A stretch of DNA of 17,768 nucleotides. Source: Desulfovibrio oxyclinae DSM 11498. Lineage in GTDB: Bacteria > Desulfobacterota > Desulfovibrionia > Desulfovibrionales > Desulfovibrionaceae. The position numbers were made by a program, and so were the translations under genes. This document shows, one piece after another, positions 803 to 17,768 of the stretch. The stretch is taken from assembly GCF_000375485.1 (NCBI RefSeq), contig NZ_AQXE01000020.1, forward strand, positions 192 through 17,959, given 5' to 3'. Position 1 is the stretch's first letter, and every line of letters starts with the position of its first letter. A model generated the notes under the pieces. The model saw nothing but the letters and a program-made list of their open reading frames with translations. It had not been told where the DNA came from and searched no databases.

Positions 803-803
803 G

Positions 804-835: not shown

Positions 836-864
836 TGAAATCATGGGTGGATACAGGCAGGAAC

Positions 865-1500: not shown

Positions 1501-1532
1501 GGGAGACCTCTTTTCTTCTGTGCCGAAGTTGA

Positions 1533-1555
1533 ATTCCTACCAGGCAGCTAGGAAT
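1533..1555. repeat. Inverted repeat overlapping the candidate -10 (possible operator or 5' leader hairpin)
   Basis: ATTCCTA (1533-1539) and TAGGAAT (1549-1555) are perfect 7-bp arms separated by 9 bases. The right arm overlaps the proposed -10 and the rest would lie in the 5' leader. It could bind a dimeric regulator or fold in the mRNA; nothing in the sequence decides between these. Confidence 0.4.
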
Positions 1556-1579
1556 ACACGTGGTGGAAAAGATTGTCCA
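1551..1579 (-). promoter_or_regulatory. Candidate sigma70-type promoter for the outer-membrane protein gene
   Basis: On the minus strand TGGACA (1579-1574) is followed after exactly 17 bases by TATTCC (1556-1551). The -35 matches the consensus at 5 of 6 positions; the -10 is weak (3 of 6). The spacing and position, about 50 bases before the start codon, are right. Two short inverted repeats flank or overlap it, which could make it a regulated promoter. Confidence 0.35.
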
Positions 1580-1596
1580 TTACAAATTCCTGTAAT
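1579..1596. repeat. Inverted repeat ATTACA-N6-TGTAAT upstream of the outer-membrane protein gene
   Basis: Perfect 6-bp arms, ATTACA (1579-1584) and TGTAAT (1591-1596), lie between the PH-domain gene stop and the candidate -35, touching its first base. There is no T tract after it on the minus strand, so it does not look like a terminator of the PH-domain gene. An operator for a dimeric repressor or activator is the more natural reading, but this is inference. Confidence 0.35.
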
Positions 1597-1604
1597 CCTA
1601 TACA

Positions 1605-1982
1605 CTACTTCAGAATCCCGTTGGCCAACAGCTTCTGGATACCGACCACGTCGGTGCCTTTCTTCAGTTCCTTGACCACCGGTTCGCTTCGGCCCGACAT
1701 CCAGATTTTCAGTTCGGCGTCCAGATCGAAGTGGCCCGCGGTCTCCACCGAAAAACAGGTCATGGAACGGTACGGCAGGGAGAGATAGTCCACCTTGGAG
1801 CCGGTTATGCCCTGCTTGTCGATGAGCAGCAGCCTGCGGTCCGTGAAAACGAACATGTCGCGGATGACCTTGAACACGCGCTGGACGTGCTCGGCGTCCG
1901 CCAGAATCGGGGCAAGTTCTTCGGCGACGTCTTCGGACTTCACTTCCGAGGCGTTACCCATCAGTCCGTCGAGAAATCCCAT
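1605..1982 (-). CDS. Bacterial PH-domain protein (bPH_1 family)
   Basis: A 125-residue cytoplasmic protein with no signal peptide or membrane segment. It starts at ATG 1982 behind AGAGGAG. It has the highly conserved hallmarks of the small bacterial pleckstrin-homology family: an N-terminal MGFLDGLMGNASEV, the central strand run FVFTDRRLLLIDKQGITG, then SLPYRSMTCFSVETAGHFDL and a C-terminal helix KKGTDVVGIQKLLANGIL. It covers essentially one PH fold, the normal family length. The molecular role of these proteins is poorly known; envelope-stress or membrane-associated roles have been proposed for relatives. It sits 28 bases downstream of the histidine kinase stop, so it may be read from the same transcript. 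Family assignment is firm; function is unknown. Confidence 0.88.
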   Translation of the reverse strand: MGFLDGLMGNASEVKSEDVAEELAPILADAEHVQRVFKVIRDMFVFTDRRLLLIDKQGITGSKVDYLSLPYRSMTCFSVETAGHFDLDAELKIWMSGRSEPVVKELKKGTDVVGIQKLLANGILK

Positions 1983-2010: not shown

Positions 2011-4146
2011 CTAATCGATGAGGTCGGGCCGCTTTTCGCCAAGCAGCCTGCCGATGGCTTCCATCATCTCATGGCGCAGGATCGGCTTCATGATGAAGTC
2101 GCCTATGCCTATCTCGCGGATGCGTTCGTAACTCACGGCCTCGGAAAAACCGGTGCACAGGATGATGGGCACGCCGGGGCGAATACGCACCATCTCACGC
2201 GCCAGTTCTATGCCGGTCATGTTGGGCATGGACTGGTCGGTAATCACCAGGTCGAAATCATCGCTGCGATACTTGAAGGCTTCAAGCGCCTCGATACTGC
2301 TGGTGCGAGTGACCACGTCAAAGCCCATGGACTCCAGCATCTCCTTGCCGATGTCCACCAATGCCTTCTCGTCGTCCACGAACAGGATGCGCCCCTTGGT
2401 AAAGACGAGCTGAGGCCGGGACTCCGTCTGCGGACGTTCCAGCGACGGGGTGCGCGGAAGAAAAACATGAAAGACCGTGCCGCTGCCCGGCTCGCTTTCC
2501 ACAGTGATATGCCCGTCGTGCCGCTTGACGATGCCGTGCACCATGGCGAGACCCATTCCAGTGCCCTCGCCGGGTCCCTTGGTGGTGAAAAACGGATCGA
2601 AAATGCGCTCAAGCGTCTCGGCATCCATGCCGGGGCCGTTGTCGCGAACGGTCAAACGGACGAACCATTCGGGACCGCCCAGCTCTTCCGGGGGTTCCGG
2701 GCCATCGGCGTCCGCATCGGCCAGTTCCACGTCAACCCTGCCGCCTCCACGCTCCATGGCTTGTGCAGCGTTGGTGCAGAGGTTGAGCATGATCTGGTGC
2801 AGCTGGGTGGCATCGGCCATCACCTGATCATCCTTTGCATCGACGGTAAGGGTCAGCTCGATGTTGGCGGGAATGCTGGAACGCAGCATCTTGAACGCTT
2901 CCTTGAGAAGCGGCGAAAGCGACATGGGCTGCCGCTCCTCGGGACTCTGGCGGCTGAAGTTGAGAATCTGCGTCACGAGATCGCGCGCACGCCGCCCGGC
3001 GGAAAGAATCTCGCCCACGCGACGGGCAAGGCCCGACCCCTCGTCTGCCGAGGATTCGATGATTTCCGCATACCCGAGGATCACGCCGAGAATGTTGTTG
3101 AAGTCGTGCGCGATGCCACCTGCGAGCGTGCCGAGCGACTCCATCTTCTGGGCCAGTCTGAGCTGCTGCTCCAGCCGTTTGCGCTCGGTAATGTCGAAGA
3201 AATATCCGCGGATTTCATGACCGCCGCGTTCGTTGGTCACCACGTCCACGTTGCCCAGCAGCTCCCTGCCCCTTGGCCCTGCGCTGAGTTCGTGATTCCT
3301 GACGCTGCCGCGTTGCCGCAGCAGTTCATCCAGCGGCTCCTTGCCGCCGAGCTTTCCCCATATTTCAAACAGGCTCATGCCTGCCGCGGCTTCCGGTGAG
3401 GCCAGCCCGAGCACCTCGGCAAAAGCGAGGTTGCAGTCCACGATCCGCCCCTTGGCGTCAGCGAGAAAATTGCCGGTGATGTTCTTTTCGAAGAGTTCGC
3501 GATACCGCTCTTCACTGGCCTTGAGGTCCTTGAGCACGTCGGCACGCTTGGCAATGTCGTTGAGCAGCCGCTGGTTGGCCTTGTTGAGTTCCTCGGTTCG
3601 GGCCTCAACAACCAGTGCGAGGCTTTCGTTGAGTTCGCGAAGCTCGGTCTCGGCGCGCCACTTGTTGCAGAGCGACACGGCCACCTGACGGAACTCCTGC
3701 GAGCGAAAAGGCTTTTGCAGGTACAGCAGCTTTTCCGGAGGCTGAACGCGACGGTTGAGTTCGGCAAGCGGCACACTGGTGGCCGAAGACATCATGAGCA
3801 CTTCGACGCCAGCGTCCATTTCCCGCAGCATTTCTGCGGTTTCCACGCCGTCCATCCCGTGTTCAAGGCGGACTTCGACCACGGCAAGGGCAAAGGGCCT
3901 GCCCTCGGCCACACCATCGGCCATGGCTTGAACAGCTTCGGCACCGGTTGTGGTCCTGACCACCTCGAAACGGAAGGAATCCACGGGCGCGTCCGTCATC
4001 GGCGCCGCAGAGGCATCGGAAAAGAGTGCTTCGAGCGCTTCGGGTTCCTGCCCTTCATAACAGAGGATGTCGCGATACAGCGTGAGCGCATCGCGATCGG
4101 GGTCCACGGCGAGTACCCGGAATACGGTGGTGTCCTGAACGGGCAA
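2011..4146 (-). CDS. Hybrid sensor histidine kinase (REC-PAS-HisKA-HATPase-REC)
   Basis: A 711-residue cytoplasmic signalling kinase with no membrane segments. I place the start at TTG 4146 because GAGGAG lies six bases upstream and a candidate promoter sits about 50 bases before it; the longer frame to an ATG at 4299 crosses a strong hairpin and has low-complexity residues. Order from the TTG: receiver-like domain (about 8-160), coiled segment (about 163-205), PAS (about 212-320), HisKA with H-box GGIAHDFNN (His347), HATPase with the N-box NLCTNAAQAM and G-boxes DNGPGM and GEGTGMGL (to about 564), and a C-terminal receiver (586-700, acceptor Asp637 in VITDQSMP). In the first receiver the acceptor position is Glu91 (AVVEVRL) instead of Asp, though the conserved Ser/Thr and the Lys of LQKPF remain. 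It lies just downstream of the Tad operon and could control surface attachment, but there is no direct evidence. Confidence 0.92.
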   Translation of the reverse strand: MPVQDTTVFRVLAVDPDRDALTLYRDILCYEGQEPEALEALFSDASAAPMTDAPVDSFRFEVVRTTTGAEAVQAMADGVAEGRPFALAVVEVRLEHGMDGVETAEMLREMDAGVEVLMMSSATSVPLAELNRRVQPPEKLLYLQKPFRSQEFRQVAVSLCNKWRAETELRELNESLALVVEARTEELNKANQRLLNDIAKRADVLKDLKASEERYRELFEKNITGNFLADAKGRIVDCNLAFAEVLGLASPEAAAGMSLFEIWGKLGGKEPLDELLRQRGSVRNHELSAGPRGRELLGNVDVVTNERGGHEIRGYFFDITERKRLEQQLRLAQKMESLGTLAGGIAHDFNNILGVILGYAEIIESSADEGSGLARRVGEILSAGRRARDLVTQILNFSRQSPEERQPMSLSPLLKEAFKMLRSSIPANIELTLTVDAKDDQVMADATQLHQIMLNLCTNAAQAMERGGGRVDVELADADADGPEPPEELGGPEWFVRLTVRDNGPGMDAETLERIFDPFFTTKGPGEGTGMGLAMVHGIVKRHDGHITVESEPGSGTVFHVFLPRTPSLERPQTESRPQLVFTKGRILFVDDEKALVDIGKEMLESMGFDVVTRTSSIEALEAFKYRSDDFDLVITDQSMPNMTGIELAREMVRIRPGVPIILCTGFSEAVSYERIREIGIGDFIMKPILRHEMMEAIGRLLGEKRPDLID

Positions 4147-4194
4147 GAAACGCTCCTCTATTTCCTTGAGGGATGCATGGCCCCCTTTCGTCGG

Positions 4195-4223
4195 AATATA
4201 TTGGAACGAACGGAAAAAGTGAA
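4195..4223 (-). promoter_or_regulatory. Candidate promoter for the hybrid histidine kinase
   Basis: On the minus strand TTCACT (4223-4218) is followed after 17 bases by TATATT (4200-4195). Matches to the sigma70 consensus are 4/6 and 5/6. It lies downstream of the hairpin at 4237-4274 and about 50 bases before the TTG start at 4146, which supports the shorter protein and separate transcription from the Tad operon. Confidence 0.42.
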
Positions 4224-4236
4224 GCGGTGCGGGAAA

Positions 4237-4274
4237 CCGCGCGCCCGAAGGGGCAAAACCCAGCGGGCGCGCGG
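4237..4274 (-). terminator. Strong hairpin after the Tad operon, probable terminator or attenuator
   Basis: CCGCGCGCCCG (4237-4247) and its exact complement (4264-4274) form an 11-bp GC-only stem around a 16-base loop that itself contains GGG/CCC. On the minus strand, the direction of the tadD-like gene ending 30 bases earlier, the stem is followed by only three Ts and then CCC. It is therefore a weak intrinsic terminator by the U-tract rule, and partial read-through into the kinase gene is possible. Confidence 0.6.
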
Positions 4275-4303
4275 ATGTCTGGCGGTTGGAGCGGGCCACG
4301 AGG

Positions 4304-5785
4304 CTACTGTGCGGCCTCGGTCAGAGGGTAGACACCGGCCTGCTCAAGACCCAGCCTCTTCAATACGGCGGGTCTGGCATCCATGGCCTCCTGAAGAGAG
4401 GAATAGTGGCCGACCAGCACCCGGTGCCAAACGCCCTTTTCTCCGAGGTCTGCGGTGGCGAGAGAGCTTTCAAAGCCATCGTGCTTCAGGGCCTCCATGT
4501 GCTTTCTCGCGTGCTCGGTGTCGCGCCATGAGCTGACGTGCAGTCCATATTCGGCGCGCTTTTCTTCGATAGTATCAGACACCCCTTCTGCCGCAGACAC
4601 GTCAGTCGCGTCCTCGGCGACCATTTCCCCGACGGTCGCTTCGGTCGCAACTGTTTCCGTGGCGGCCGCTTCGGTTACGGTCGCTTCGGTTGCCGTCGGT
4701 GCGCTGGCTGTCGCTTCGGGTTCATCCGCAAATCCCGGAGGGAGGGAGGTGAAACCGAGCGAATCCGGATCCGCGGCGGGTCCGGTCGCCGTGGCCGCGG
4801 CGGGGAGAGCCGCGGCCTCGGCGATGGACCGACGCTCGTTCCCGGAGGATGCGAGCGGCGGCAGGTTCGGGGTGGAACCTTCGTTTTCGGTGCCCGAAGA
4901 GGCAGCCATACGCGCCCGCTTCAGGTTTTCGAAAGCCTTATCGTAAAAGGTCGGGGAGAGCTCCACCGCCCTTTCGAAATATCCAGCGGCCTGCTGCGGA
5001 CGCCCTTCCATGAGCAGCACGTAGCCGAGGTTGTTGTACGCCTTGGATTCATTGCCGCCGTAGCGGAAGGCCTCAAGCGCCTCGTCGAGCCGCCCCATGC
5101 GGGTCAGGGCGAGACCGAGGTTGTTGTAGGTGCGCGCGGAAGCGCCGCCGCTTTCCAGTGCATTGCGGAAGAGCCGTGCCGCCTGCCGATACTGCTGGCG
5201 GGCCATGTGCGTCACGCCGAGATTGTTCACCACGCGGGCCGCGTCCTTGCCGTTGGCAGACTTGAGCGCGAGCCGGAAGTGCTTCGCGGCCAGATCGGGG
5301 TTGCCCCGACGATCATGCAGCACGCCGTAATAACAATTGGCCTTCCACCGTTCTGGGTTGGTTTCCAGCGCGCTTTGCAGATGCTCTTCCGCCTCGTCGT
5401 CAAGCCCGGCGAGATAGAAGACCACGCCCGCCCCTTCATGTGCACCGGCATGATCCGGTTGCTTTTCGAGCACGGCGCGAAATTCGCGCAGAGCCGCTTC
5501 CGTGGCACCCTGCTCAAGGAGCATTTCGCCCTTGAAGGCGCGGATTTCGATATTTTCGGGAGCCATGTTCTGAGCCCGGTTCAGGTGCACAAGGGCCATC
5601 TCGGGCTTGCCGTCGGCAGCCATGCCGCGACCCACCTGAAGATGCTGGTCGGCAGTGAGTTCGGAGTCGCCGCCCCAGGCAAATTCCTGAAAGGACTCCC
5701 CGTTGCCGGTCTTGCGTGCGGCGCATCCGCCCAGCAGCGTTGCGGCCAACAGTATCGCGAGTGTTCTGATGACGATGGCGTTCAT
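4304..5785 (-). CDS. tadD: TadD-like TPR lipoprotein with C-terminal SPOR domain
   Basis: A 493-residue protein with start ATG 5785 after GGGGAG. Residues 1-20 are a lipoprotein signal with lipobox LLGGC (Cys21), so it should be anchored by lipid, probably in the outer membrane. Residues about 45-295 hold around seven tetratricopeptide repeats, recognisable by Ala/Gly/Tyr spacing and NNLG repeats (YNNLGLAL, YNNLGYVL). TadD proteins of this type are lipoproteins needed for Tad pilus biogenesis, probably assisting the secretin. Residues about 296-405 are a low-complexity Ala/Thr/Glu linker. Residues about 412-487 (YGLHVSSW to AGVYPL) look like a SPOR domain, a fold that binds denuded peptidoglycan. 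Most TadD proteins end after the TPRs, so this is a two-part version. It is the last gene of the operon, 22 bases after tadC. Confidence 0.85.
   Translation of the reverse strand: MNAIVIRTLAILLAATLLGGCAARKTGNGESFQEFAWGGDSELTADQHLQVGRGMAADGKPEMALVHLNRAQNMAPENIEIRAFKGEMLLEQGATEAALREFRAVLEKQPDHAGAHEGAGVVFYLAGLDDEAEEHLQSALETNPERWKANCYYGVLHDRRGNPDLAAKHFRLALKSANGKDAARVVNNLGVTHMARQQYRQAARLFRNALESGGASARTYNNLGLALTRMGRLDEALEAFRYGGNESKAYNNLGYVLLMEGRPQQAAGYFERAVELSPTFYDKAFENLKRARMAASSGTENEGSTPNLPPLASSGNERRSIAEAAALPAAATATGPAADPDSLGFTSLPPGFADEPEATASAPTATEATVTEAAATETVATEATVGEMVAEDATDVSAAEGVSDTIEEKRAEYGLHVSSWRDTEHARKHMEALKHDGFESSLATADLGEKGVWHRVLVGHYSSLQEAMDARPAVLKRLGLEQAGVYPLTEAAQ
4631..4716 (-). repeat. Degenerate GTCGCTTCGGT repeats encoding an Ala/Thr/Glu linker
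   Basis: A short motif close to GGTCGCTTCGGT recurs four times on the plus strand (starting near 4634, 4664, 4679 and 4709), in register with codons for repeated TEA(T/A)V-like residues of the TadD-like protein. It is an internal coding tandem repeat that links the TPR and SPOR domains and could vary in copy number between strains. Confidence 0.5.
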
Positions 5786-5807
5786 ATCGGTTCTCCCCTT
5801 TTTGACG

Positions 5808-6761
5808 CTATTGCGGCAGCGCCGCGAAAACGTCGATGAAAAGCATAATGGCCGGCCCCATGATGACCACGAACAGCGCGGGCAGGATGAAAAGGATCAA
5901 GGGCAGCAGCAGAAGCACGGGCAGCTTGGCGGCCTTTTCCTCGGCCAGCTGGAACCGCTTGGTGCGCATGGTGTCCGAATACACGCGCAGAGTGCGCCCC
6001 ACGCTGATGCCGAACGTGTCCGCTTGCACGAGCAGGGATATCAGGCTGTTCAGGTCTTCCACGCCGCAGCGGCGGCCAAGGTCGCGCAGGGCATCCGTGC
6101 GCTTCCTGCCGGCGCGCAGCTCCAGCGTGAGCTGATAGAATTCGAGGCTGATCTCGGGCGATGAGTTTCTCATCTCATTGCACACGCGGGTGATGGCCTG
6201 ATCCAGCCCCATGCCGGATTCCACGCAGACCACCAGAAGGTCCAGCGCATCGGGCAGGGCGTTAAGGATGGCCTCGGCCCGTTTCTTGGTACGCATCCGC
6301 AGCCAGATGTCCGGGGCGTAGCAGCCCACGGCGGCCAGTCCCACGGCGCCGAGCACGGTGGGCGGCAGCCCGAGGTCTTCGAAGACGAGCTGACGCAGCA
6401 GCAGGAATCCGCCCGCAAGAGCAACGGTGAGGGAAGCCTTGGCCCCCTGAAACACGCGCCAGCCGTCAGGCCTGCGGATGCCCGCGCGAATGAGCGCAAG
6501 CTGGTTGGCCCGGCGTTCCTCGTCGGTCTTGGGACCTATGCGCGCGCCGAGCTGGCCGAACATGTCGGAAACCGGATGCCAGAGGCCGCCCAGAAGGGAT
6601 CCGCCAGTCTTCCCGGTGCTACGGGGGCGACCGGAAATGCGCTGGGCGATCTCTTCGGACCGTTTCGCGCCGCCGCTGAGACTCATGAAGCCCATGAGGG
6701 CCATGAGCACCGCGGCGAAGGCGGCCCCTGCCGCTATGAGTGGAATGTACTGTTCGAACAT
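5808..6761 (-). CDS. tadC: Tad pilus inner-membrane platform protein TadC
   Basis: A 317-residue polytopic membrane protein. It has an N-terminal membrane helix (about 8-28), two more around 105-125 and 133-150, a cytoplasmic T2SSF (GspF-like) domain (about 168-270, with LPDALDLLVVCVESGMGLDQ and the matching QADTFGISVGRTLRVYSDTM motif) and a C-terminal helix (about 280-312). TadB and TadC together form the platform that couples the CpaF ATPase to pilin insertion. The PDALDLLVVCVESG motif is typical of TadC. The start at ATG 6761 has only a weak AGGGA site, but the gene begins 10 bases after the tadB stop, so translational coupling is likely. Length is normal for the family. Confidence 0.93.
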   Translation of the reverse strand: MFEQYIPLIAAGAAFAAVLMALMGFMSLSGGAKRSEEIAQRISGRPRSTGKTGGSLLGGLWHPVSDMFGQLGARIGPKTDEERRANQLALIRAGIRRPDGWRVFQGAKASLTVALAGGFLLLRQLVFEDLGLPPTVLGAVGLAAVGCYAPDIWLRMRTKKRAEAILNALPDALDLLVVCVESGMGLDQAITRVCNEMRNSSPEISLEFYQLTLELRAGRKRTDALRDLGRRCGVEDLNSLISLLVQADTFGISVGRTLRVYSDTMRTKRFQLAEEKAAKLPVLLLLPLILFILPALFVVIMGPAIMLFIDVFAALPQ

Positions 6762-6771
6762 GGTTCGGTCC

Positions 6772-7733
6772 CTACACCTTGATCTTGATCATCCGACGGA
6801 TGATGACGATGCCGAGCGTCATGGAACATGCTGCCCCGATGGCCATGCTCCGACCCAGTTCCGTGGTCCACAGAAGGCTCATGTATTCACGGTTGAGCAG
6901 GAAGAGGACGCCCGCCACGGCAAAGGGCAGCAGGGTGAGGATGAGTGCGGAGATGCGGCCCTCGGCGGACAGCACCTTGATCTTGCCGTGCAGCTTGAAC
7001 CGTTCGCGTACCAGCCGGGCTATGTTGCCGACGATTTCGGCGAGGTTGCCGCCGGTCTCCCGCTGAATGTTCACGGAGACCACGAAAAATTTCAGGTCCG
7101 GGCAGTCCACCCGGTTGAGCAGGTTGTCCAACGCGCGGTCGGAATCCATACCATAGTTGATCTCGTCGATGGTCTTGCCGAATTCGGAGCCGATGGGTTC
7201 GTCGAATTCGTCGGCAACCATGCGCATGCCGCCGCCGAAGGTGTGCCCCGCCTTGAGGGCGCGGGCCAACAGATCCAGCGCTTCGGGCAACTGCTCCTGA
7301 AAACGGTCCATGCGCTTGGTGCATCGGCGTTTGAGCCACCAGATGGGTATATACCCCACGATTCCGGCGAGCACGGCGGCCGCGATCAGCATCTTGCTGA
7401 GCAGGAAAACCGCGTAACCGGTGAGCAGGCCCAACGTGAGACTGAGCAGCAGATACAGCCCCGGCGTGCCGGGGGCCTTGGCCATGGAGACGAGACGACT
7501 CAGGTTGGCTGCCCAGCGCATCTGCTGCAGCATGGTGTTGAACCACGGCACTTCGCTCATCTGCCTGCGTACGAGGTATTCCACGGTTTCCACGTCCGCG
7601 TCCGAGGCGGCCAGCGCGCCCAGACGGCTGCGGATGCGCTCGTCCGAGTCGTCCCGGCGCGAGCGCAGGAACGAGGCGACGCCCACCACGAGCAGGAAAA
7701 CCACGAAAGCGCAAAGCACCACGATGAGCAGCA

Positions 7734-7737
<4 letters not shown>
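6772..7737 (-). CDS. tadB: Tad pilus inner-membrane platform protein TadB
   Basis: A 321-residue membrane protein. There is an N-terminal helix (about 2-22), a helix pair around 93-135, a T2SSF domain (about 145-255, with [20 protein letters not shown] and [19 protein letters not shown]) and C-terminal helices (about 262-282 and 295-315). The start is GTG 7737, which overlaps the cpaF stop as GTGA; a second in-frame ATG follows directly at 7734. GGGAGG lies eight bases before the GTG and eleven before the ATG, so the GTG is favoured. It partners TadC in the platform over the CpaF motor. The tight overlap shows translational coupling with cpaF. Confidence 0.94.
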
Positions 7738-9145
<1,408 letters not shown>

Positions 9146-9149
<4 letters not shown>

Positions 9150-10327
9150 GCGTTCACCCTCCCTGCGGAGCCGCTCTTGCGGCCGCCCTTGCGCGACAGG
9201 AGTCCGGACAGACCGGAGAACAGGCCGCCGCGTCTGGCGACGGGCAATCCGAGTTCACGGGCCATTTCGTTCACGGGCTTGGCATACGCGCTCTTGGGGG
9301 ACGCGGTCAGCAACGGCACGCCCTGATTGATGGCGGCCGAGGCATCCGCGAACACGCCGGGGAGCGTCAGGCCGATCTCGCAGCCGAGGGCCTCGGCTGC
9401 ATCGGTCGGCTCCACGCCGCCGCCCTTGACCACGCGCGAGGCCACCACCCGCAGCTTACGGGAGGCTTCGGGATCGGCACGCCTGAAAGCGTCCACGGCA
9501 CGCTTGGCATCCGCCAGCGCGGGCATGGTCAGCTCCGTGACCAGCAACAGATCGTCCGCCTGCTCCGCTGCGGTGGGCAGGGAGCCGTCGGACTCAAGAG
9601 CCGCGTCCACGATGATGTGATCGTAGGCTCCGCGCATGGTCTCGAAAAGGGTATGCACGGCCTGCGGATCGGGCTTTGCGGGATTGCGCGGCCCGGCCAG
9701 CACGGCCAGCTTGTCAGGGCCTTCGCCCACCGCGCTGGCGAGGAAGGTTTCGTCCAGACGGGAGGCGTCCGCCAACAGGTCTTCCCAAGTGTAGTCGCAC
9801 TGGGCTTCAAGGAAGAAGCGCACATCGCCGCACGGTCTGCCCATGTCCGCCAGCAGCACCCTGCCCGGTGCTGCCTTGGCAAACACGTTGGCCAGATTCA
9901 CGGCCAGCGTGGTGCTTCCCATGCCCGGACGCGCGCCGAGCACAACGCTCACGCGTCCGCTGCTTTCCTGTCCTTCCACGACCACGTTGCGGCTGCGGAT
10001 GCGCATGAGCACGTCACGCACCGCCCGAGGCTCCAGCGGATACGGAAGATATTCCCGGATGCCGCCGCGCATGGCTTCGATGAGCAGTTCGGGGGCGGGC
10101 TTTTCGCCCACCAACACCACGTCCGTGGCCGAGCCGTTTTCCAGCGCACCGGCTATCTCCGCCAGTTCCTGAACGGCCTCCGGGCCGGGCTCGTAGAAAA
10201 GCACGCCCATGTGTTCGGCGTTTTCCGGCGCGTGAACAACCCACGGCAGAGCCTCGACAACCTTGTCGAGCACCTTGCGCTGGGTGTCGTCCGCCACCAC
10301 CACGGTCATGGTCAGCTTGCCTCTCAT
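9146..10327 (-). CDS. cpaE: Tad pilus localisation ATPase-like protein CpaE/TadZ
   Basis: A 393-residue protein. Residues about 5-115 form a receiver-like domain without an obvious phosphoacceptor, and about 125-360 form a MinD/ParA-like domain. The P-loop reads [10 protein letters not shown] (131-140): both lysines of the usual KGGxGKT deviant Walker A are absent (Arg133 in place of the signature Lys, Ser138 in place of the second). The A' motif VLLADMG (Asp161) and a Walker B-like HIIVDAA (Asp241) are present. The last 25 residues are Gly/Ser/Lys/Arg-rich with a short hydrophobic patch, possibly a membrane-binding tail. CpaE/TadZ proteins mark where the pilus is built. The start ATG 10327 follows GGAGGAG; four-base overlaps with both neighbours show coupling. 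Confidence 0.9.
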
Positions 10328-10497
10328 CGTGCTCCTCCGGCATGGGATGCAAGCTCCACCTGCGCATGGCCTGCGGAACGCATCGGTTCGACATGGAAGC
10401 TGTCCAGCACGAAGACATCCGCGAGGATGACCACCGCCATGACCAGCATCAGCACCAGTTCCCGCCAGTAGGTAACATTGTCTTCGAAATAATACAT
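10324..10497 (-). CDS. Small single-pass membrane protein of the Tad operon (57 aa)
   Basis: A 57-residue reading frame starts at ATG 10497 and stops at TGA 10326-10324. Its start overlaps the preceding lipoprotein stop (TGATG) and its stop overlaps the cpaE start (ATGA), with no gap on either side, which is strong evidence that it is translated. It begins MYYFEDNVTYWRE, has one hydrophobic helix (about residues 13-32, with a single Asp at 27) and a short, mostly hydrophilic tail with two His-Ala pairs. The N-terminus is probably cytoplasmic or periplasmic by length alone; topology is not clear. I do not recognise a family. Its fixed place between the secretin-side lipoprotein and the cytoplasmic CpaE suggests a small inner-membrane component or connector of the pilus machine. 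Confidence 0.8.
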   Translation of the reverse strand: MYYFEDNVTYWRELVLMLVMAVVILADVFVLDSFHVEPMRSAGHAQVELASHAGGAR

Positions 10498-10787
10498 CAG
10501 TTCAGCATCTCCCCGAGAACCTCCTGAAAAAGGCTCTCACCCTCGGAACTCCCCGACTTGGGGCCTTCCTGATATTGCTCCAGAACCTTGAGCGCATATT
10601 CGCCGTCGGCGCCCTTCACGGGCTCGGTGCCCGCGGGCATGGGATTGAGCTTCTGGGCTTCCACCGCCTGACTCACGGCCGTGCCGTGCGGCATGGTGCT
10701 GGGTTCGTGCTGCACCTGCATGACGCTGCAGCCGGACAGTCCCAGCGAGGCGAGGAAGACGATGACGGTCATTGCGACGTTTCTCAT
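10497..10787 (-). CDS. Small Tad-locus lipoprotein of unknown function
   Basis: A 96-residue protein with start ATG 10787 after AAGGAGA. Residues 1-19 are a signal with lipobox LGLSGC (Cys20), followed by Ser21, which does not signal inner-membrane retention, so outer-membrane sorting is expected. The remainder (SVMQVQHEPSTMPHG, then a charged Gly/Glu-rich helix ending QEVLGEML) is largely hydrophilic. It lies 22 bases after the secretin gene. Small lipoproteins next to secretins often act as pilotins or stabilisers, and Tad loci commonly carry one (RcpB-like or CpaD-like). No sequence feature ties it to those families, so that role is inference from position. Confidence 0.8.
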   Translation of the reverse strand: MRNVAMTVIVFLASLGLSGCSVMQVQHEPSTMPHGTAVSQAVEAQKLNPMPAGTEPVKGADGEYALKVLEQYQEGPKSGSSEGESLFQEVLGEMLN

Positions 10788-10809
10788 GAAGACTTCTCCT
10801 TGTGCCCGC

Positions 10810-12195
10810 CTAGTTCGGCAGGGAATGGCCCAGGTCGCCGTCGAAACCGCTTTCGGGGCTGACCACGACGGACTCGCGGCGGTTCTTCGGGGCGCTCGTC
10901 AGCGCAGGCTTGTCGCGGCGGCCCTCCAGAAGACCGAGCAGATAGAACTCGTAATCGCTCGGTTCGCGGAATCCGTCAGTGGGCAGCGACTGGGTCGCGG
11001 CATCCACCGGCTTGACCAGATGCGCGGTGACGATGATCACCAGTTCGGTCTTGTTGCTCCTGAAGTCGTTGCTGCTGAACAGCGAGCCGAGCACCGGCAC
11101 GTCGCCGAGCACCGGGAAGCGGTTGGCGTTCTCGCGCAGAGAGTCGCTGATCAGGCCGCCCACCACGAAGCTCTGGCCGTCGGCAAGCTCCACCACGGTG
11201 GATGCCTTTCGGGTCTGCACGGCCGGGATGGTGTAACCTTGGAAGGTGACGGCATTGGAATAGTCCAGCTCGGAAACCTCGGGCTTGACCTTGAGATTGA
11301 TGACGCCGGAGCTGAGTACGGTGGGGGTGAACTTGAGCCCCACGCCGAAGGGCTTGTACTCGATGGAGACCATGCCGAGCGCCTGCGGGACGGGGATCGG
11401 AATCTCACCGCCTGCGAGGAAGTCGGCGGTCTCGCCGGACACGCACACCAGATTCGGTTCGGCCAGCACCTTGACCAGACCGTTGGCCTTGAGCGCGTCG
11501 ATGAAGCCGCTGAAAGAGCTGCTGCCCTGCGTGGCCTGCACCACGCCGTTGATACGGTCCGTGAGATTGATCTTGGTACCGTCCTGATCAAGCGAAGTCA
11601 GGCCGTTGAGAAACGAGTATGCCGTGAAATTGTTGGACAGGTAGGCGAAGTTCACACCCATGCGCTTGAGCACGGTGCGGGTCATCTCGGCCACGCGCAC
11701 CTCCAGCATGACCTGCATCACGCCGTCCACCCGCAGCAGGTTCACGACCTTTTCCGGGGCCACGGTCTGGGCCAGCTCGTTGGCGGCCTTGAGGGCCGAG
11801 GCGCTGCTTACGCTGCCAGTGAGCGTGATGGACTCGGAGTTGGCCCGCACGCTGATGTCGGTCTCGGCGGGCAGCACTTCGTGCAGCATCCGCTTGAGGC
11901 CCGTGACGTCCGGCACCACCTTGATGTCCTTGACCACGATGCCGCCGTCGGTCCACAGCGTCAGGGTGGTTGCCCCGAACTCCTTGCCCGCGAGATATAT
12001 CTGACGCGGGGAAAGAAGGAGCATGCTGGCAATCTCGGGCGAACCCAGCGAAACGCGGCTGACCGGCGATTCCACATCGATCACCACGGACTTGTTCTTG
12101 ACCAGCATCACCTCGTCGGGCGACTCGGCCGAGGCCGCCGCCGGCGCGAGGGCCAGCAGCACGATTGCCGTTATGACGTATATTGCATGCCGCAT
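10810..12195 (-). CDS. cpaC: Tad pilus outer-membrane secretin CpaC/RcpA
   Basis: A 461-residue protein that forms the outer-membrane channel through which the Flp pilus exits. The start ATG 12195 follows AGGAGA. Residues 1-23 are a Sec signal peptide with cleavage after ASA. The N-terminal pilus-secretin domain (about 29-98, with LGSPEIASMLLLSPRQIYLAG) is followed by a BON domain (about 98-158, with SITLTGSVSS) and the secretin core (about 235-397). The core holds LAEPNLVCVSGETADFLAGG, the GVGLKFTPTV strand and the hallmark VPVLGSLF segment. The last 60 residues form a charged tail that could be where a pilotin or the neighbouring lipoprotein binds. It begins 8 bases after the cpaB stop. All diagnostic motifs are intact. 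Confidence 0.96.
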   Translation of the reverse strand: MRHAIYVITAIVLLALAPAAASAESPDEVMLVKNKSVVIDVESPVSRVSLGSPEIASMLLLSPRQIYLAGKEFGATTLTLWTDGGIVVKDIKVVPDVTGLKRMLHEVLPAETDISVRANSESITLTGSVSSASALKAANELAQTVAPEKVVNLLRVDGVMQVMLEVRVAEMTRTVLKRMGVNFAYLSNNFTAYSFLNGLTSLDQDGTKINLTDRINGVVQATQGSSSFSGFIDALKANGLVKVLAEPNLVCVSGETADFLAGGEIPIPVPQALGMVSIEYKPFGVGLKFTPTVLSSGVINLKVKPEVSELDYSNAVTFQGYTIPAVQTRKASTVVELADGQSFVVGGLISDSLRENANRFPVLGDVPVLGSLFSSNDFRSNKTELVIIVTAHLVKPVDAATQSLPTDGFREPSDYEFYLLGLLEGRRDKPALTSAPKNRRESVVVSPESGFDGDLGHSLPN

Positions 12196-12203
12196 GATAT
12201 CTC

Positions 12204-13019
12204 CTAGAACTTCACCTTGCTGCGTTCGCCGCCGGTAATGACCTCCACGCTCACCCTGCGTCTGCGCGGGGCCCGCTTGCGCCTTGGCGGAGCCTTGCGA
12301 TAGGCCGCCAACGCACTGTTCACGGTGGAGCCGGGGGTCAGCACGGTCTCGGTATCCTCGCCGTTGCGAAGCGCGAAGTGCAGGGTGCCGCGGGTGGCGG
12401 CCAGAGCCAGTCGTTCGCTTTCTTCGGGGGTGAGTTCGAGCGTGTAGACGTCCACCGAGGCGGTCTTGCCCTCACCCTTGGGGGAGGAGAGCTGCGTGCC
12501 CGTGGCGAGCACCGGGACGTTCGCCAGCACCAGCTTGGTGACGGGCTTTTCATCGCGTCCCTTGGTCAGGGAGACGAGCACGTCCACCTTGTCACCGGGG
12601 AGCACGAATCCGGAAAGGCCCATGACGGGGTTGCCCTTGACGGCCATGGCCCGCTTGCCGGGGGTGATCATGGCGCTCACGCCGGGAACCTTGAGCTCCA
12701 GCGGTTCGAGCATGGAGGCGGTCAGCGCCTCGCCCTTGGCCAGATCCTGCGCCAGCACGCGGCCAACAACAGGGCCGGTGGAAAGAAAAACGTCAGGCGG
12801 AGTTTCCGCCGTGCGCCTGCCCTTGAGGGCCACCGCCTCGGGGCCGATCTTCATGCCCTTCTTGAGGTCCGCGGCTGCCACGGCGTAGTAACTCACCGGC
12901 GCCTCGGGCCCGGTCTGGGCAGGGCGCTGGGCCATCCAGCGGAAGACCATGAAGGCCGCCACCAGCGACAGGACAAGGGCCAGTCCTATCTGAAGGGCTG
13001 CTTTCGTGGATCTGGTCAT
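12204..13019 (-). CDS. cpaB: Tad pilus assembly protein CpaB/RcpC
   Basis: A 271-residue envelope protein with start ATG 13019 after AAGGAGG. It has one N-terminal membrane helix (about 7-26), then a SAF domain (about 43-104, with YYAVAAADLKKGMKIG) and an RcpC/CpaB domain (about 112-230, with FVLPGDKVDVLVS and YTLELTPEESERLALAATRG). The end is VSVEVITGGERSKVKF, the family's typical final strand pair. Between them lies a strongly basic stretch (residues 241-255, nine Arg/Lys among 15), which could contact peptidoglycan or lipid headgroups. The SAF domain resembles that of FlgA and may bind peptidoglycan. CpaB works with the CpaC secretin, whose gene follows by 8 bases. Confidence 0.93.
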   Translation of the reverse strand: MTRSTKAALQIGLALVLSLVAAFMVFRWMAQRPAQTGPEAPVSYYAVAAADLKKGMKIGPEAVALKGRRTAETPPDVFLSTGPVVGRVLAQDLAKGEALTASMLEPLELKVPGVSAMITPGKRAMAVKGNPVMGLSGFVLPGDKVDVLVSLTKGRDEKPVTKLVLANVPVLATGTQLSSPKGEGKTASVDVYTLELTPEESERLALAATRGTLHFALRNGEDTETVLTPGSTVNSALAAYRKAPPRRKRAPRRRRVSVEVITGGERSKVKF

Positions 13020-13085: not shown

Positions 13086-13631
13086 CTACCGTGCGAACGG
13101 TGCGCCGGTTTCAATCATGGTCAGTGCCATGGCGGTCACGGTTCCCGCGGCTATGGCCACGCCGTAGCAGAGGCGCGGCAGGGAACCTTCGGGGGTGACG
13201 GGGGTGTATTCAACGGTCCGGGTGGTGAGAAATGCGAGGATTGTGTAGCGGAAGTTGGCGAGGATCGCCTTGAGATGGTCCATGTGCCGAAGCAACATGC
13301 CCAGTGCGTAAATCCCGCCCGCGAGGCAGGTGACAAGAAAGGCGATGAAGGCCGTTTCAACGCCGAGACAGGCGCCGACACCGGCCATGAGCTTGACGTC
13401 TCCGGCACCCATAACGCCCATCAGAAATGGAATGAACATCACGCCGAAGCCGAGACCGAAGCCGCCCAGCGAAAACAGCAGGCCATCCAGCCCACCGGTG
13501 GCGGTGTGCAGTCCCAGTCCCGCGAGTATCAGCGGAAACGTGAGCAGGTTGGGTATGCGCTGGCTCCTGACGTCAGTGACGACAGCCGCCACCAGGGCGG
13601 CCAGCAGCAGCGCGGCGATAACGAAATCCAT
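13086..13631 (-). CDS. cpaA: Type IV (Flp) prepilin peptidase CpaA/TadV
   Basis: A 181-residue inner-membrane aspartyl protease (A24 family) that removes the leader of Flp prepilin. It consists almost wholly of hydrophobic helices. The two catalytic aspartates are visible: Asp20 in VVTDVRSQRIPN and Asp78 in the GAGDVK motif, in the usual spacing. It lacks the N-terminal methylase domain of large PilD enzymes, as is normal for TadV-type peptidases. The start ATG 13631 follows GGGGAAG. It lies between the flp remnant and cpaB; the 66-base gap before cpaB shows no clear promoter. Its usual substrate gene is the broken flp next to it. Confidence 0.94.
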   Translation of the reverse strand: MDFVIAALLLAALVAAVVTDVRSQRIPNLLTFPLILAGLGLHTATGGLDGLLFSLGGFGLGFGVMFIPFLMGVMGAGDVKLMAGVGACLGVETAFIAFLVTCLAGGIYALGMLLRHMDHLKAILANFRYTILAFLTTRTVEYTPVTPEGSLPRLCYGVAIAAGTVTAMALTMIETGAPFAR

Positions 13632-13700
13632 GGTTCTTCCCCGAATCCTTTCATTGAATTGCCTCGATGATTTCCTGCGTTCCCATCTCCCCGGGAACCC

Positions 13701-13734
13701 CGGGGCCTGCGGTTTCTCCCCTCCGCAGGCCCCG
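13701..13734 (-). promoter_or_regulatory. Stem-loop between flp and cpaA (mRNA stabiliser or partial terminator)
   Basis: CGGGGCCTGCGG (13701-13712) pairs perfectly with 13723-13734 around a 10-base loop. Read on the minus strand it follows the flp stop by 16 bases. The sequence after it is G-rich rather than T-rich, so full termination is unlikely. A hairpin here would fit the common pattern where an abundant pilin message is protected or uncoupled from weaker downstream genes. A second short GC palindrome (CCCGGG) lies just beyond it at about 13690. Confidence 0.6.
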
Positions 13735-13750
13735 AACAGGCTTCCATGGC

Positions 13751-13879
13751 CTAGCTGCCTGCGGCGGCGCCGGTCATGCTGTTGGCGATGGAGGTAAAGG
13801 TGTTGGAGACGGTGGATCCGAGCGTGGAGACTGCGGTCACGATGCCTGCTGCGATGAGTGCGGCGATCAGGCCGTATTC
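13751..13879 (-). pseudogene. flp: Flp-type pilin, 3' fragment interrupted by a Tn3-family transposon
   Basis: Reading from the transposon edge, the fragment encodes 42 residues starting EYGLIAALIAAGIVTAVSTL and ending MTGAAAGS before TAG 13753-13751. EYGLIAALIA is the signature of Flp/Fap pilins, with the Glu that is the fifth residue of the mature protein. Only the part before it is missing: the charged leader, the Gly cleavage site and the first mature residues. The break is exactly at the codon boundary before Glu. The frame continuing into the transposon repeat meets a TAA within 12 codons, so no fused product with a pilin leader can form. The missing 5' part should lie beyond the transposon's far end, outside the window. 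Confidence 0.92.
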
Positions 13880-13917
13880 GGGGTCACTCCATAGAACGGA
13901 CAAAATTGCACGTTAAG
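13880..13917. repeat. 38-bp terminal inverted repeat of the Tn3-family element
   Basis: It begins GGGGTCACTCCATAGAACGG and ends GCACGTTAAG. Length 38, the GGGG start and the ACGTTAAG inner end are the hallmarks of Tn3-family repeats; the last eight bases equal those of Tn3 itself. The tnpA stop codon (13915-13913) lies inside it. Confidence 0.93.
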
Positions 13918-16837
13918 GGTTTTGGCCAAGATTCCAGATGTAATCCCCTGTGAGATTGATGTGCTCCCATCCAAGCGGAGAAAGGTAGCTCTGGAACTCC
14001 TCCGGAACATCCATTTCCTCTCGCACCTTCTCCACGGCTTTTTCCAGATATACAGTGTTCCAGAGGATTATCGCTGCTACGACAAGGTTTAGGCCGGAAG
14101 TCCTGTAGCACTGACTTTCAAAAGAACGATCTCGGACTTCTCCGAGCCGGTTGAAAAACACTGCACGAGCAAGTGCGTTTCTGGACTCACCTTTGTTCAG
14201 ACCGGCTTGGACACGAGAACGTAGTTCTGGCTTCTTTACCCAATCCAACAAAAACAGAGTCCTCTCCAAACGCCCAAGTTCGCGTATGGCCAAGGCCAAC
14301 TTGTTTTGCCGTGGATAGGAGGCCAGCTTACGAATTATGAGGGATGCCGTAACGGTTCCCAACCTAATTGAGCTTGCCAGCCTCAATATCTCTTCCCATT
14401 GGTTCTCGATGTCCTTCTGCTTGATCTTTGATCCTATCAATGGCTCTAGATCAGCCCAGCGCCTTGCGCTGCCGAAGGTGTAAAGCTTTACGTCACCTAT
14501 GTTTCGAATGCGAGGAGCAAAGCGAAATCCTAGCAAATGGCAAAGAGCAAACACATGATCCGTAAACCCTGCGGTGTCAGTGTAATGCTCCTCAATATTG
14601 AGATTGCTTTCATGATAAAGCAGGCCGTCCAGGACATAGGTTGCATCGCGTGCTGTTGCGTTGATGAGCTGGCTGTGAAACGGAGTGTATTGATCTGAGA
14701 TATGGGTATAGAAAATCACACCGGGATCTCGCCCGTATCGTGCGTTCACATCTCCGAGGCCTCGGCCAACACTGCCAAGGGGAAAGTGCTGCCCGTCTGA
14801 AGACGAGGTGGAGCCATCCCCCCACTGTCCTGCAAGTGGAATTATGTGGTGGTAATTGGTGATCTCAGCCAATCCTCTGGAATAGCACTCGCTTCTGACA
14901 TACCAATCCGAAACCCAAGACAATTGTTTATACGAGGCTCCAGAACTGGCCTCTGCCATCCTTGTCAGGCCAAGATTAATCCCATCTGAGAGAATCACTG
15001 ACAGAAGAGATTCTTTGTCTTGAGATGGTTGGCCAGTCCTCAAATGAGTGAACTGTTCGGCGAAGCCTGTCCACTGATCTACCTCAATGAGAAGGTCGGT
15101 AATTTTGATACGTGGAAGCTTTGCATATACGCGCTGACCGAATTGCTTTGCTTCATCGGGCACAGAGTTACCCCTGTAGGGCTGCATTGAAAGCCTACCA
15201 TTCTTGAGACAAACCGTATCCAGATCATTGCTTCTGAGAAGCCTTTGAAATTCTTCCAACTGGCTTCCAAGGAGTTCTTTTCGCTCTGAGATGTATCGTG
15301 CGCAGTCCGTTTCGACCGCCACAGGTACTTCATGAGAGTCTTGAAGCTGACGAAAAGCGGAAGGCCCCATGAGGTATTCATTGAAATCTTCAAATTGACG
15401 GCTACCTGGCACCCATACATCGCCAGAACGGAGTCGGTTGCGAAGCTCGCTCAATGCGCACAATTCATAATATCTACGGTTCATCCCATCATCTTCAAAG
15501 ATAAATGGTTGCCAGCGTTTTGGGATAAATGATGTCGGAGCCTGGTCGGGCAATTTGCGTTTGCCCGTTTTGTTCATGTCTCGGATGATATCAATAGCAG
15601 TGAGGACATCCCGCCCACCAGAGCTTGCACGGAAGTCAAAATGCTCCAACATGGCCGGGGCATATCGACGAATCTGGTTAAAACTCGTATCAATATAATG
15701 GAGGTAATCGAATCGTTGAGGTTGTGATAGGTTTTCAGCGGCTTCAACCGTTGCACGAAAATCATCCCAGGACAGTTCAGCTTCAATGACCTCCCAAGGG
15801 TCTAAATGCTCCTCACGCGCTTTGATTAAGGCCCGCCCAAGCTTTGAGAAAACGTTGACGGTTGTTTTGATGTTCTTTGCATCATCTTGTAGCTGAGCAG
15901 CCTGTTTTCGTTGGCTACGTCTCATTAGGGAGCCAATGATGCGGTCATGCATGTTAACGACCTCATCCATTAAGGAGCGTTGAATTTCAAGCAAGCATAC
16001 GGCCATGATCGTATAGCGTCTTTGCTCATTCAACATTCGCAGATTATGCACCGCAATTCGATTACCTTCTTGGGAGAGCTGCTTGCGACGAATTGTTGGT
16101 ACTGCGCCCAACACCTCGGAAGGAAGATCGAGCTGCCGGATAGCGGCCAGCTTTCCCATGATCAAAATCACATTTGTAGGCGAAGGACGGCCAGCAGGTT
16201 GGCGAATCCATGAAAGTCTACTCTGGGATTTCTCTCCTCGTGGATTGAGCCAAAATTCAAGGTCTGCCTGGTGCCTGTCGGACAACAGTCCATTCACTTC
16301 ATTGTAGACTTTACGATCTGCTTGAATCTTCACCTGAGCAACAAGGCGTTCCACAACGCTCAAAGCAGGATGAAGAATTTTGCGGCGTCTCAATTCATTT
16401 AGGATTGCACCTACGAGGAAAGCACTTTTTGGATTGTCTACGGCAATGGGCGTCAACCAGCGCACCATCTCTCGATAGTGACTGTCTCCAAACCTCGAAA
16501 GCCGGAAAAACTTTATCAAGGTCTTTAAATGTTCTCTTCGCGTTTGATCTCTGTCCGCGTAGCCACTGAAGACTTCCGACTCTTCTCCTATTTGTTCAGC
16601 AATGAATTCGACCAAGGAGTCGGGGATTTCTTCCTCTGGCCGCAAGGCCCTTCCAGGGAATTTGATGAGGCAGAGTTGTAAAGCAAATCCGAGCCGATTG
16701 TGTGGCCGTCTACATTTGGAAATAAGCGCAAGCTCGTCTTCGTCCAAAACGTAGTATCGTGTGAGTAAATCTGGAACGCTTGGTAAGGCTTCGAAAACGG
16801 CTCTTTGAGAAGAGGAAAGGACTGTTCTACGAGGCAT
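13913..16837 (-). CDS. tnpA: Tn3-family transposase TnpA
   Basis: A 974-residue DDE transposase that carries out replicative transposition, binding the 38-bp repeats and forming cointegrates. Length is normal (about 950-1000). The N-terminal part (about 10-200) is the DNA-binding DUF4158-type region, and about 580-960 is the catalytic domain. Likely catalytic residues are Asp681 (TSSSDGQ), Asp754 (YTDTAGFTD) and Glu884 (NKGESRNAL); their spacing (73 and 130) matches that known for the family. The frame is intact end to end, so the element may be active. ATG 16837 has only a weak GTGGG site. The gene points toward the pilus operon, so read-through could transcribe cpaA onward. Confidence 0.97.
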   Translation of the reverse strand: MPRRTVLSSSQRAVFEALPSVPDLLTRYYVLDEDELALISKCRRPHNRLGFALQLCLIKFPGRALRPEEEIPDSLVEFIAEQIGEESEVFSGYADRDQTRREHLKTLIKFFRLSRFGDSHYREMVRWLTPIAVDNPKSAFLVGAILNELRRRKILHPALSVVERLVAQVKIQADRKVYNEVNGLLSDRHQADLEFWLNPRGEKSQSRLSWIRQPAGRPSPTNVILIMGKLAAIRQLDLPSEVLGAVPTIRRKQLSQEGNRIAVHNLRMLNEQRRYTIMAVCLLEIQRSLMDEVVNMHDRIIGSLMRRSQRKQAAQLQDDAKNIKTTVNVFSKLGRALIKAREEHLDPWEVIEAELSWDDFRATVEAAENLSQPQRFDYLHYIDTSFNQIRRYAPAMLEHFDFRASSGGRDVLTAIDIIRDMNKTGKRKLPDQAPTSFIPKRWQPFIFEDDGMNRRYYELCALSELRNRLRSGDVWVPGSRQFEDFNEYLMGPSAFRQLQDSHEVPVAVETDCARYISERKELLGSQLEEFQRLLRSNDLDTVCLKNGRLSMQPYRGNSVPDEAKQFGQRVYAKLPRIKITDLLIEVDQWTGFAEQFTHLRTGQPSQDKESLLSVILSDGINLGLTRMAEASSGASYKQLSWVSDWYVRSECYSRGLAEITNYHHIIPLAGQWGDGSTSSSDGQHFPLGSVGRGLGDVNARYGRDPGVIFYTHISDQYTPFHSQLINATARDATYVLDGLLYHESNLNIEEHYTDTAGFTDHVFALCHLLGFRFAPRIRNIGDVKLYTFGSARRWADLEPLIGSKIKQKDIENQWEEILRLASSIRLGTVTASLIIRKLASYPRQNKLALAIRELGRLERTLFLLDWVKKPELRSRVQAGLNKGESRNALARAVFFNRLGEVRDRSFESQCYRTSGLNLVVAAIILWNTVYLEKAVEKVREEMDVPEEFQSYLSPLGWEHINLTGDYIWNLGQNP

Positions 16838-16973
16838 TTGAACCCACTTGTATCTTTTCTTGAATCAATGACGTATTGTTAACATAGTTTGTGATACGGA
16901 ATAAGGTACAGAATATCGTACCCACCTGAACTATATTGGACATGTAACTCAAACGAGGGTTTGTGAACAGCCT
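16838..16973. promoter_or_regulatory. res-like resolution site and divergent promoter region between tnpA and tnpR
   Basis: This 136-base AT-rich gap lies between divergent tnpA and tnpR, where Tn3-branch elements keep their res site. It contains imperfect dyads: CGTAT/ATACG (16872-16898, 27 bases, a size usual for a resolvase core site) and GGTAC/GTACC (16905-16922). GTTTGTGA occurs twice (near 16887 and 16958). The subsites are not assigned with certainty, and the tnpA and tnpR promoters must overlap this region, which gives resolvase autoregulation in relatives. Confidence 0.65.
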
Positions 16974-17600
16974 ATGAAAATTGGTTACGCACGAGTGTCA
17001 AAAGCTGATGGCTCACAAAATTTAGATCTCCAACGAGATGCTTTGCTGAAGGCAGGAGTTCCTGCTAAGCGCATTTATGAAGACATGGCTTCCGGCAAGA
17101 AAGGCAAACGTCCAGGTTTGGACGCTTGCCTAAAAGCTCTACGCCAAGGAGACATTCTGTTGATTTGGAAGCTTGATCGCCTAGGGCGAGATCTCAAGCA
17201 CCTTGTATGCGTGGTGCAAGAACTTGCTGAGAAGGATATTGGCTTTAAAGTCCTCACAGGGCGTGGGGCAGATATCGACACAACCTCTGCAAGTGGCAAG
17301 CTGATTTTTGGCATCTTCGCAGCCCTTGCCGAGTTCGAGCGTGAATTGATCAGAGAGCGAACCATGGCAGGGCTTGAAGCCGCCCGCGCTCGCGGTCGCA
17401 AGGGAGGACGGCGATTCGCTCTAAACAAGACCCAAGTACAAATGGCGCAAGCTGCAATGAAAAACAAGACAACTAGCGTGAGGAATCTCTGTAAAGAGCT
17501 TGGGGTAACACGGGTCACCCTTTATAGGTATGTAAGTCCAAGTGGTGCGTTAAGGGGGCATGGCATACAGGTTTTAAATCCACATGCCCCACATGCATAA
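16974..17600 (+). CDS. tnpR: Tn3-family serine resolvase TnpR
   Basis: A 208-residue site-specific recombinase that resolves transposition cointegrates at res and often represses its own and tnpA promoters. The N-terminal catalytic domain starts MKIGYARVSKADG with nucleophile Ser9. It holds LDRLGRD (about 67-73) and the FERELIRERTMAGLEAARARG helix region. The C-terminal helix-turn-helix is about 155-190 (SVRNLCKELGVTRVTLYRYV). The tail SPSGALRGHG and a His/Pro-rich end follow, slightly longer than the usual 185 residues. ATG 16974 is preceded by GAGGG about 14 bases upstream, a poor site, but it is the only start that preserves the conserved N-terminus. All catalytic residues are present. Confidence 0.95.
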   Translation: MKIGYARVSKADGSQNLDLQRDALLKAGVPAKRIYEDMASGKKGKRPGLDACLKALRQGDILLIWKLDRLGRDLKHLVCVVQELAEKDIGFKVLTGRGADIDTTSASGKLIFGIFAALAEFERELIRERTMAGLEAARARGRKGGRRFALNKTQVQMAQAAMKNKTTSVRNLCKELGVTRVTLYRYVSPSGALRGHGIQVLNPHAPHA

Positions 17601-17627
17601 GTCGTCAACTTCATTTATTGCGATATC

Positions 17628-17768
17628 TTATTGTCTTGTCAGCACTTCCTTCATTCGTTGGTATTCATCCGCAGTGAGTTCTCCCTTTGCGAATTTTTCC
17701 TTGATGATGTTCAGGGAGTCATCTCTGTCCGGTCGTCCACCTTGTCGGGAGGTGAAGGCTTGAAAGAG
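17628..17768 (-). CDS. SHOCT-domain protein, C-terminal part (5' end outside window)
   Basis: The frame is open from the window edge to TAA 17630-17628 and gives 46 residues. The final 30 (DSLNIIKEKFAKGELTADEY and on to a Lys-Glu-Val-Leu) match the SHOCT pattern, a short amphipathic helix pair found at the ends of many small bacterial proteins and thought to mediate oligomerisation or membrane association. The preceding SRQGGRPDRD looks like a linker. It converges on tnpR with 27 bases between the stops. It is either transposon cargo or, less likely, flanking DNA. Function cannot be inferred from the visible part. Confidence 0.7.
   Translation of the reverse strand, partial: LFQAFTSRQGGRPDRDDSLNIIKEKFAKGELTADEYQRMKEVLTRQ

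Follow-up and report, generated by a model that had tools for sequence, protein, structure and literature searches.

A Tn3-family transposon interrupts the last gene of a tandem Flp pilin triplet heading the Tad operon of Desulfovibrio oxyclinae

Results

A transposon splits flp3

In D. oxyclinae DSM 11498, a genuine and well-formed Tn3-family insertion has destroyed flp3, the last member of a tandem triplet of flp pilin genes. The best explanation, to which we assign a probability of about 0.88, is that the element inserted by ordinary transposition, with duplication of TATTC, into flp3 at the head of the Tad operon, and that the main effect would be polar and regulatory. We analysed a stretch of 17,768 nucleotides (the window), which ends at the end of contig C20 (17959 bases), inside the transposon. 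The other side of the insertion was located on contig C19. The features are collected in Table 1.

On the minus strand, positions 13751-13879 of the window encode EYGLIAALIAAGIVTAVSTLGSTVSNTFTSIANSMTGAAAGS-stop (GAA TAC GGC ... TAG), the portion of a Flp pilin that begins at EYG and runs to the stop, which scores 39.8 bits against Flp_Fap (PF04964), over the cut-off, from model position 12 onward. This part has no leader. The 38-bp terminal repeat directly abuts GAA-TAC-GGC, as the initial annotation had described in placing a Tn3-family insertion at the Glu codon of EYG, and the GAATA found on both sides is the target duplication. The 5-bp duplication is perfect, with TATTC (GAATA on the flp strand) flanking the transposon at either end. 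Allowing up to 3 mismatches, the window contains the repeat GGGGTCACTCCATAGAACGGACAAAATTGCACGTTAAG once, and none of 200 shuffles contains it.

The leader, the peptidase site and the first mature residues had been expected across the transposon, and alignment with intact Flp sequences places them on C19, where the open frame MQIIKNLIHNEEGATALE ends ...ATALE and is closed by a TAG stop that the transposon's first bases create. Neither of the two halves makes up a whole pilin. Aligned separately with flp1, flp2 and three Flp sequences of Salidesulfovibrio brasiliensis, the two halves together show the features of a Flp pilin, with a leader whose last residue before the mature start is G, E at mature position 5 and the EYG hydrophobic segment; the position of the peptidase site is the one we presume for this family. 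The right end of the transposon, also sought on the strength of the earlier claim, was found on C19 with its second TATTC and the flp 5' part directly after it; the two terminal repeats are identical at 33 of 38 positions. The suggestion that the insertion is recent is weakly supported, both flp3 pieces and the duplication being undecayed.

Table 1. Features of the split flp locus and its transposon (window positions unless a contig or locus is named).
Feature	Position	Strand	Details
Remaining Tad genes, all	4304..13019	-	
tadD-like TPR gene	4304-5785	-	named from TPR domain and order
tadC	5808-6761	-	named from T2SSF domain and order
tadB	6772-7737	-	named from T2SSF domain and order
cpaF/tadA	7734-9149	-	CpaF-type ATPase; 344.0 of 373.15, under NCBIfam TadA cut-off
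cpaE-like gene	9146-10327	-	no Pfam match; CpaE-type NCBIfam 58.9 of 154.45 bits, below cut-off
Small lipoprotein-like gene	10497-10787	-	no Pfam match
Secretin	10810-12195	-	
cpaB/rcpC	12204-13019	-	
cpaA, prepilin peptidase	13086..13631	-	first machinery gene downstream of flp3; PF01478 76.6 bits; 181 aa, as in S. brasiliensis
Stem-loop, flp3-cpaA spacer	13701..13734	-	12 pairs; fold of 13640-13765, z -3.50
flp3 3' part	13751..13879	-	third of three tandem flp; Glu of EYG to stop; EYGLIAALIAAGIV...GAAAGS-stop; PF04964
Target-site duplication, left	13875..13879		TATTC, 5 bp
Left terminal inverted repeat	13880..13917	+	38 bp; GGGGTCACTCCATAGAACGGACAAAATTGCACGTTAAG
tnpA, Tn3-family transposase	13913..16837	-	974 aa; PF01526 516.7 bits, PF13700 179.1 bits; NF033527 1103.6 bits (cut-off 500)
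tnpA-tnpR intergenic interval	16838..16973		last difference between the flp copy and copy 2 at 16923
tnpR-type serine resolvase	16974..17600	+	208 aa; PF00239 148.3 bits, PF02796 23.9 bits
SHOCT-type passenger gene, 3' end	17628..17768	-	cut by contig end; equivalents L140 6146-6409, L006 1936-2199
IS256-type element in transposon	L006 (C19) ~520-1872		ends GTGCTGTAAATTC; transposase NF033543 378.9 bits (cut-off 150)
Right terminal inverted repeat	C19 6228-6265		33/38 identical to left
Target-site duplication, right	C19 6266-6270		TATTC
flp3 5' part	C19 (L006) 6266-6321	-	short open frame MQIIKNLIHNEEGATALE
flp2, intact	C19 6357-6533	-	PF04964 61.2 bits; just beyond flp3 5' part
flp1, intact	C19 6566-6745	-	PF04964 59.1 bits
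sigma-54 response regulator	C19 7036-8496		beyond flp1
TadE-type matches	C19 8702-8830, 9102-9209, 10347-10475	opposite to flp	far side of regulator

Pairing of the contigs

A whole-genome search for the repeat (up to 3 mismatches) gave two matches, in the window (C20) and in contig C16. A looser search (up to 13 mismatches), confined to the two ends of each of the 32 contigs and to the small contigs over their full length, added C19 and C2; six contigs under 3 kb within this search (C27-C32) read entirely as N. Exact overlaps among the ends of all 32 contigs joined neither C20 to C19 nor C16 to C2. We paired C20 with C19 because the duplicated 5-bp target, the split flp3 frame and the repeat ends agree. 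Evidence for the proposed join comes from the duplication, the divided flp3 and synteny, with no single continuous contig spanning it, and 2675 bp from the middle of the transposon would be absent from the readable sequence if the element is colinear with its relative L140 (by arithmetic).

We considered whether C20 and C19 could be chimeric at the repeat ends, with flp3 free of any insertion. The assembly does break within the repeat, C20 and C16 share an identical terminal stretch (16924 to the contig end), as do C19 and C2 (505 bp), and an N stands at the same base, 191, in C19 and C2. These shared ends and the shared N suggest that the assembler probably copied collapsed repeat sequence into both; the copies should be near-identical in the collapsed stretches, and the exact path there is only a candidate. 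However, the flp3/repeat and repeat/flp3 junctions both lie in assembled sequence far from contig ends, the duplications pair C20 with C19 (TATTC) and C16 with C2 (TACAC), and the gene order on either side of the insert is that of S. brasiliensis. We therefore regard such an artefact as extremely improbable.

The transposon and its relatives

Marks of the Tn3 family are a DDE transposase of about 1000 aa, terminal repeats of about 38 bp and a 5-bp duplication, and the element has all three. A serine resolvase was found; res subsites were not located, and res would be expected in the tnpA-tnpR interval. The flp copy resembles Tn3-family elements in its DDE_Tnp_Tn3 transposase, its serine resolvase, its 38-bp inverted repeats starting GGGG and its 5-bp duplication, and it differs in carrying a SHOCT protein and ZraP/ZraS/ZraR-like passengers, in being probably mosaic and in containing an IS256-type element. 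TnpA is 51.8% identical to that of the plasmid element TnAs1 and 50.5% to that of TnAs3, the best among the matches listed being 52.7%. On C19, the SHOCT-type gene (L006 1936-2199) scores 31.7 bits against PF09851. The best NCBIfam names of the C19 passengers are those of the ZraPSR two-component system (ZraS, 468.3 of 479; ZraR, 579.2 of 760; ZraP, 31.5 of 200), with all three under the curated cut-offs, and we call them ZraPSR-like only.

Transposase matches occur in 3 of the 36 genomes of the genus, this one included, and the others are 95–96% identical. The two congeners each hold one full-length unit, with 8133 and 8100 bp between the repeats and duplications CTGAA and TATAA. The L140 unit (G031) comprises tnpA, tnpR, a SHOCT-type gene, a ZraP-like gene, a kinase and a sigma-54 regulator (open reading frames named by likeness to the C19 genes), and the L141 unit (G035) is 97.4% identical to it. 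Copy 2 in the present genome (C16 and C2) is flanked by TACAC at each end, interrupts the first gene of an IS3-type element (read by eye) and is 99.9% identical to L140 over its readable parts (3889 and 1569 bp). These three other copies show that the element makes 5-bp duplications. Beside copy 2 lie dndD-, dndC- and dndB-like genes of DNA phosphorothioation (L009 (C16) 4405-8859; by eye from translations).

Probable mosaic structure of the flp copy

The left 3889 bp of the flp copy are 93.5% identical to L140 and differ from copy 2 at 253 positions (one of them, 15756, being an N in C16). The last of these differences is at 16923, and the sequence beyond it as far as 17768 is free of them, which would place a mosaic change-over in the tnpA-tnpR interval. 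At the other end, C19 1-505 is part of an L140-type regulator gene (99.8%), and after the IS256-type element comes a second SHOCT-zraP-kinase-regulator set, 77.8% identical to that of L140, followed by the right end of the transposon. IS256 insertion produces an 8-9-bp direct duplication. No flanking duplication of the IS256-type element was found, its flanks being unlike each other, which fits a later adjacent deletion. The whole flp copy would measure about 12.8 kb if colinear with L140 (by arithmetic).

We lean towards reading the flp copy as two related transposons fused within the tnpA-tnpR interval, with a later deletion next to the IS256-type element that left a near-tandem double passenger set. 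At the boundary of the 253 differences, the tnpA of one lineage would be joined to the tnpR and passengers of another, and the L140-type regulator piece, the unlike flanks of the IS256-type element and the divergent second set point the same way. Against this, the identical stretches coincide with sequence that the assembler collapsed or copied, no res site was located, the 14 bp on C19 that separate position 505 from the IS256-type element agree neither with copy 2 nor with the second set, and the order across the unread middle is taken from L140. Such a fusion adds to the insertion in flp3 and is compatible with it.

Tad genes and tandem pilins

Judged by secretin sequence, the nearest relative is S. 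brasiliensis JCM 12178 (L099; L142 from G009, taken as the same genome), whose secretin is 80–81% identical. With one genome per species compared, the uninterrupted locus that had been sought in a relative is present there, in the order sigma-54 regulator, flp1, flp2, flp3, cpaA, cpaB, secretin, with no insert. Both loci thus share the regulator, three tandem flp genes, cpaA, cpaB and secretin in the same order, and they differ in that S. brasiliensis lacks the transposon and its flp3 is whole.

By Pfam, the locus in D. oxyclinae holds a prepilin peptidase, RcpC/CpaB, a secretin, a CpaF-type ATPase, two T2SSF proteins and TadE-type proteins. The initial annotation called the rest of the Tad operon intact; all its genes are open frames, and a length match is shown for four of them (cpaA, cpaB, secretin and the small lipoprotein-like gene), each within 3 aa of its S. 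brasiliensis counterpart. Downstream of the Tad genes lies a PAS histidine kinase with two receiver-domain matches (2011-4299), which may act together with the sigma-54 regulator on C19. Elsewhere in the genome there is another pair of TadE-type matches (G000:C2:28895-29414).

The insertion had been described as a knock-out of the structural pilin. That description does not hold, as a search for other flp genes found two, both complete and adjoining the flp3 5' part at the right end of the transposon. Over the comparable half, 2 positions distinguish Flp3 from Flp1, and one substitution and one extra Ala near the end distinguish it from Flp2. With flp1 and flp2 intact, the loss is confined to the third of three closely similar pilins. 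Flp_Fap matches occur in 36 of 36 genus genomes, with one match in 28, two in 5 and three in 3, counted per genome, the copies not all being in one locus; a single match in 28 genomes suggests that one flp is enough for such a locus.

The insertion would still abolish the pilus if Flp3 were the major, non-redundant pilin. Flp3 is truly split, with no complete half, but the near identity of the intact Flp1 and Flp2 to it where they can be compared, and the single Flp_Fap match in most genomes of the genus, make this improbable. Loss of pilus function through the insertion is unproven from the sequence, and a regulatory and partial consequence appears more likely than a pilin knock-out.

Putative promoter and operon split

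A sigma-54-type motif, TGGCACG-N4-TTGC[AT], starts 137 bp before the EYG of flp1, and the same motif stands 136 bp before the EYG of the first flp in S. brasiliensis. It is found in 11 of 31 flp loci (this one included), against 0.1 expected per mononucleotide shuffle of the whole set, and its strict form is missing from the other 20; since L142 and L107 are one genome, the count is 10 of 30 genomes, and 6 of the 36 genus genomes lie outside the set. The string EYGLI follows 136–166 bp downstream in 9 of the 11 motif loci and was not found as an exact string in 2. A pattern requiring one extra base had no match in 3 sequences, and the plain consensus was used instead.

A regulon study in D. 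vulgaris (PMC4641369) assigns the sigma-54 response regulator DVU2114 to pili and gives the promoter consensus tGGcacg and tTGCt. The present locus resembles those pili operons in having a regulator with a sigma-54 domain and that consensus; the D. vulgaris work is a regulon study, whereas here the comparison is one of motif and gene neighbourhood only.

The insert sits between this motif and cpaA and separates the motif and two pilins from cpaA and the assembly genes. The statement that the machinery was left in place overlooked this position of the insert, between the likely sigma-54 promoter and the machinery genes. If the machinery loses the sigma-54-type promoter while flp1 and flp2 are kept, the main effect would be polar and regulatory rather than a loss of pilin.

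The stem-loop in the flp3-cpaA spacer stays on the machinery side of the insert. S. brasiliensis has an 11-pair counterpart in the same spacer (z -3.62); in either genome 0 of 200 shuffles were as stable, and two other spacers gave z 0.14 and -0.23. The stem-loop may set the ratio of pilin to machinery transcripts.

The transposase gene is oriented toward cpaA. Over 13500-17768, a sigma-70 promoter scan gave 3 sites against 3.5 in shuffles and a terminator scan 4 sites against 4.4, no excess in either case; within tnpA, the minus strand carries two promoter-like and two terminator-like sites from these scans, which do not rise above shuffles. Expression of the machinery could be maintained by promoters inside the transposon or immediately ahead of cpaA. 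One reading of this arrangement is a re-wired pilus operon, in which flp1 and flp2 would be under sigma-54, the assembly machinery would be read from the tnpA transcript and assembly would follow transposon signals. We consider this unlikely. The two terminator-like sites in tnpA would argue against read-out toward the machinery.

Discussion

An insertion of a Tn3-family element in flp3 is an ordinary event in kind. Among the papers listed on transposons in flp, no title or abstract opening describes a natural insertion in a tandem flp gene, which leaves the absence of such a case unproven. In the course of events that we propose, the transposon (about 12.8 kb in its present form, as estimated against L140) would have transposed into flp3 and duplicated TATTC. 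Flp3 is destroyed, and pilins would still be made from flp1 and flp2. From cpaA onward, the genes would no longer be transcribed from the sigma-54-type promoter that lies upstream of flp1, and the machinery genes would then depend on read-out from tnpA or on local starts.

The pairing of the two flp3 halves indicates that contigs C20 and C19 are neighbours. Through its ZraPSR-like passengers, the transposon may be a vehicle for a stress-response module among these bacteria. For the pilus locus, an apparent pilin knock-out is settled as the loss of one of three tandem pilins together with a split of the operon. If the split operon is functional, this strain would be a natural test of whether Flp pilin and Tad machinery need to be co-transcribed.
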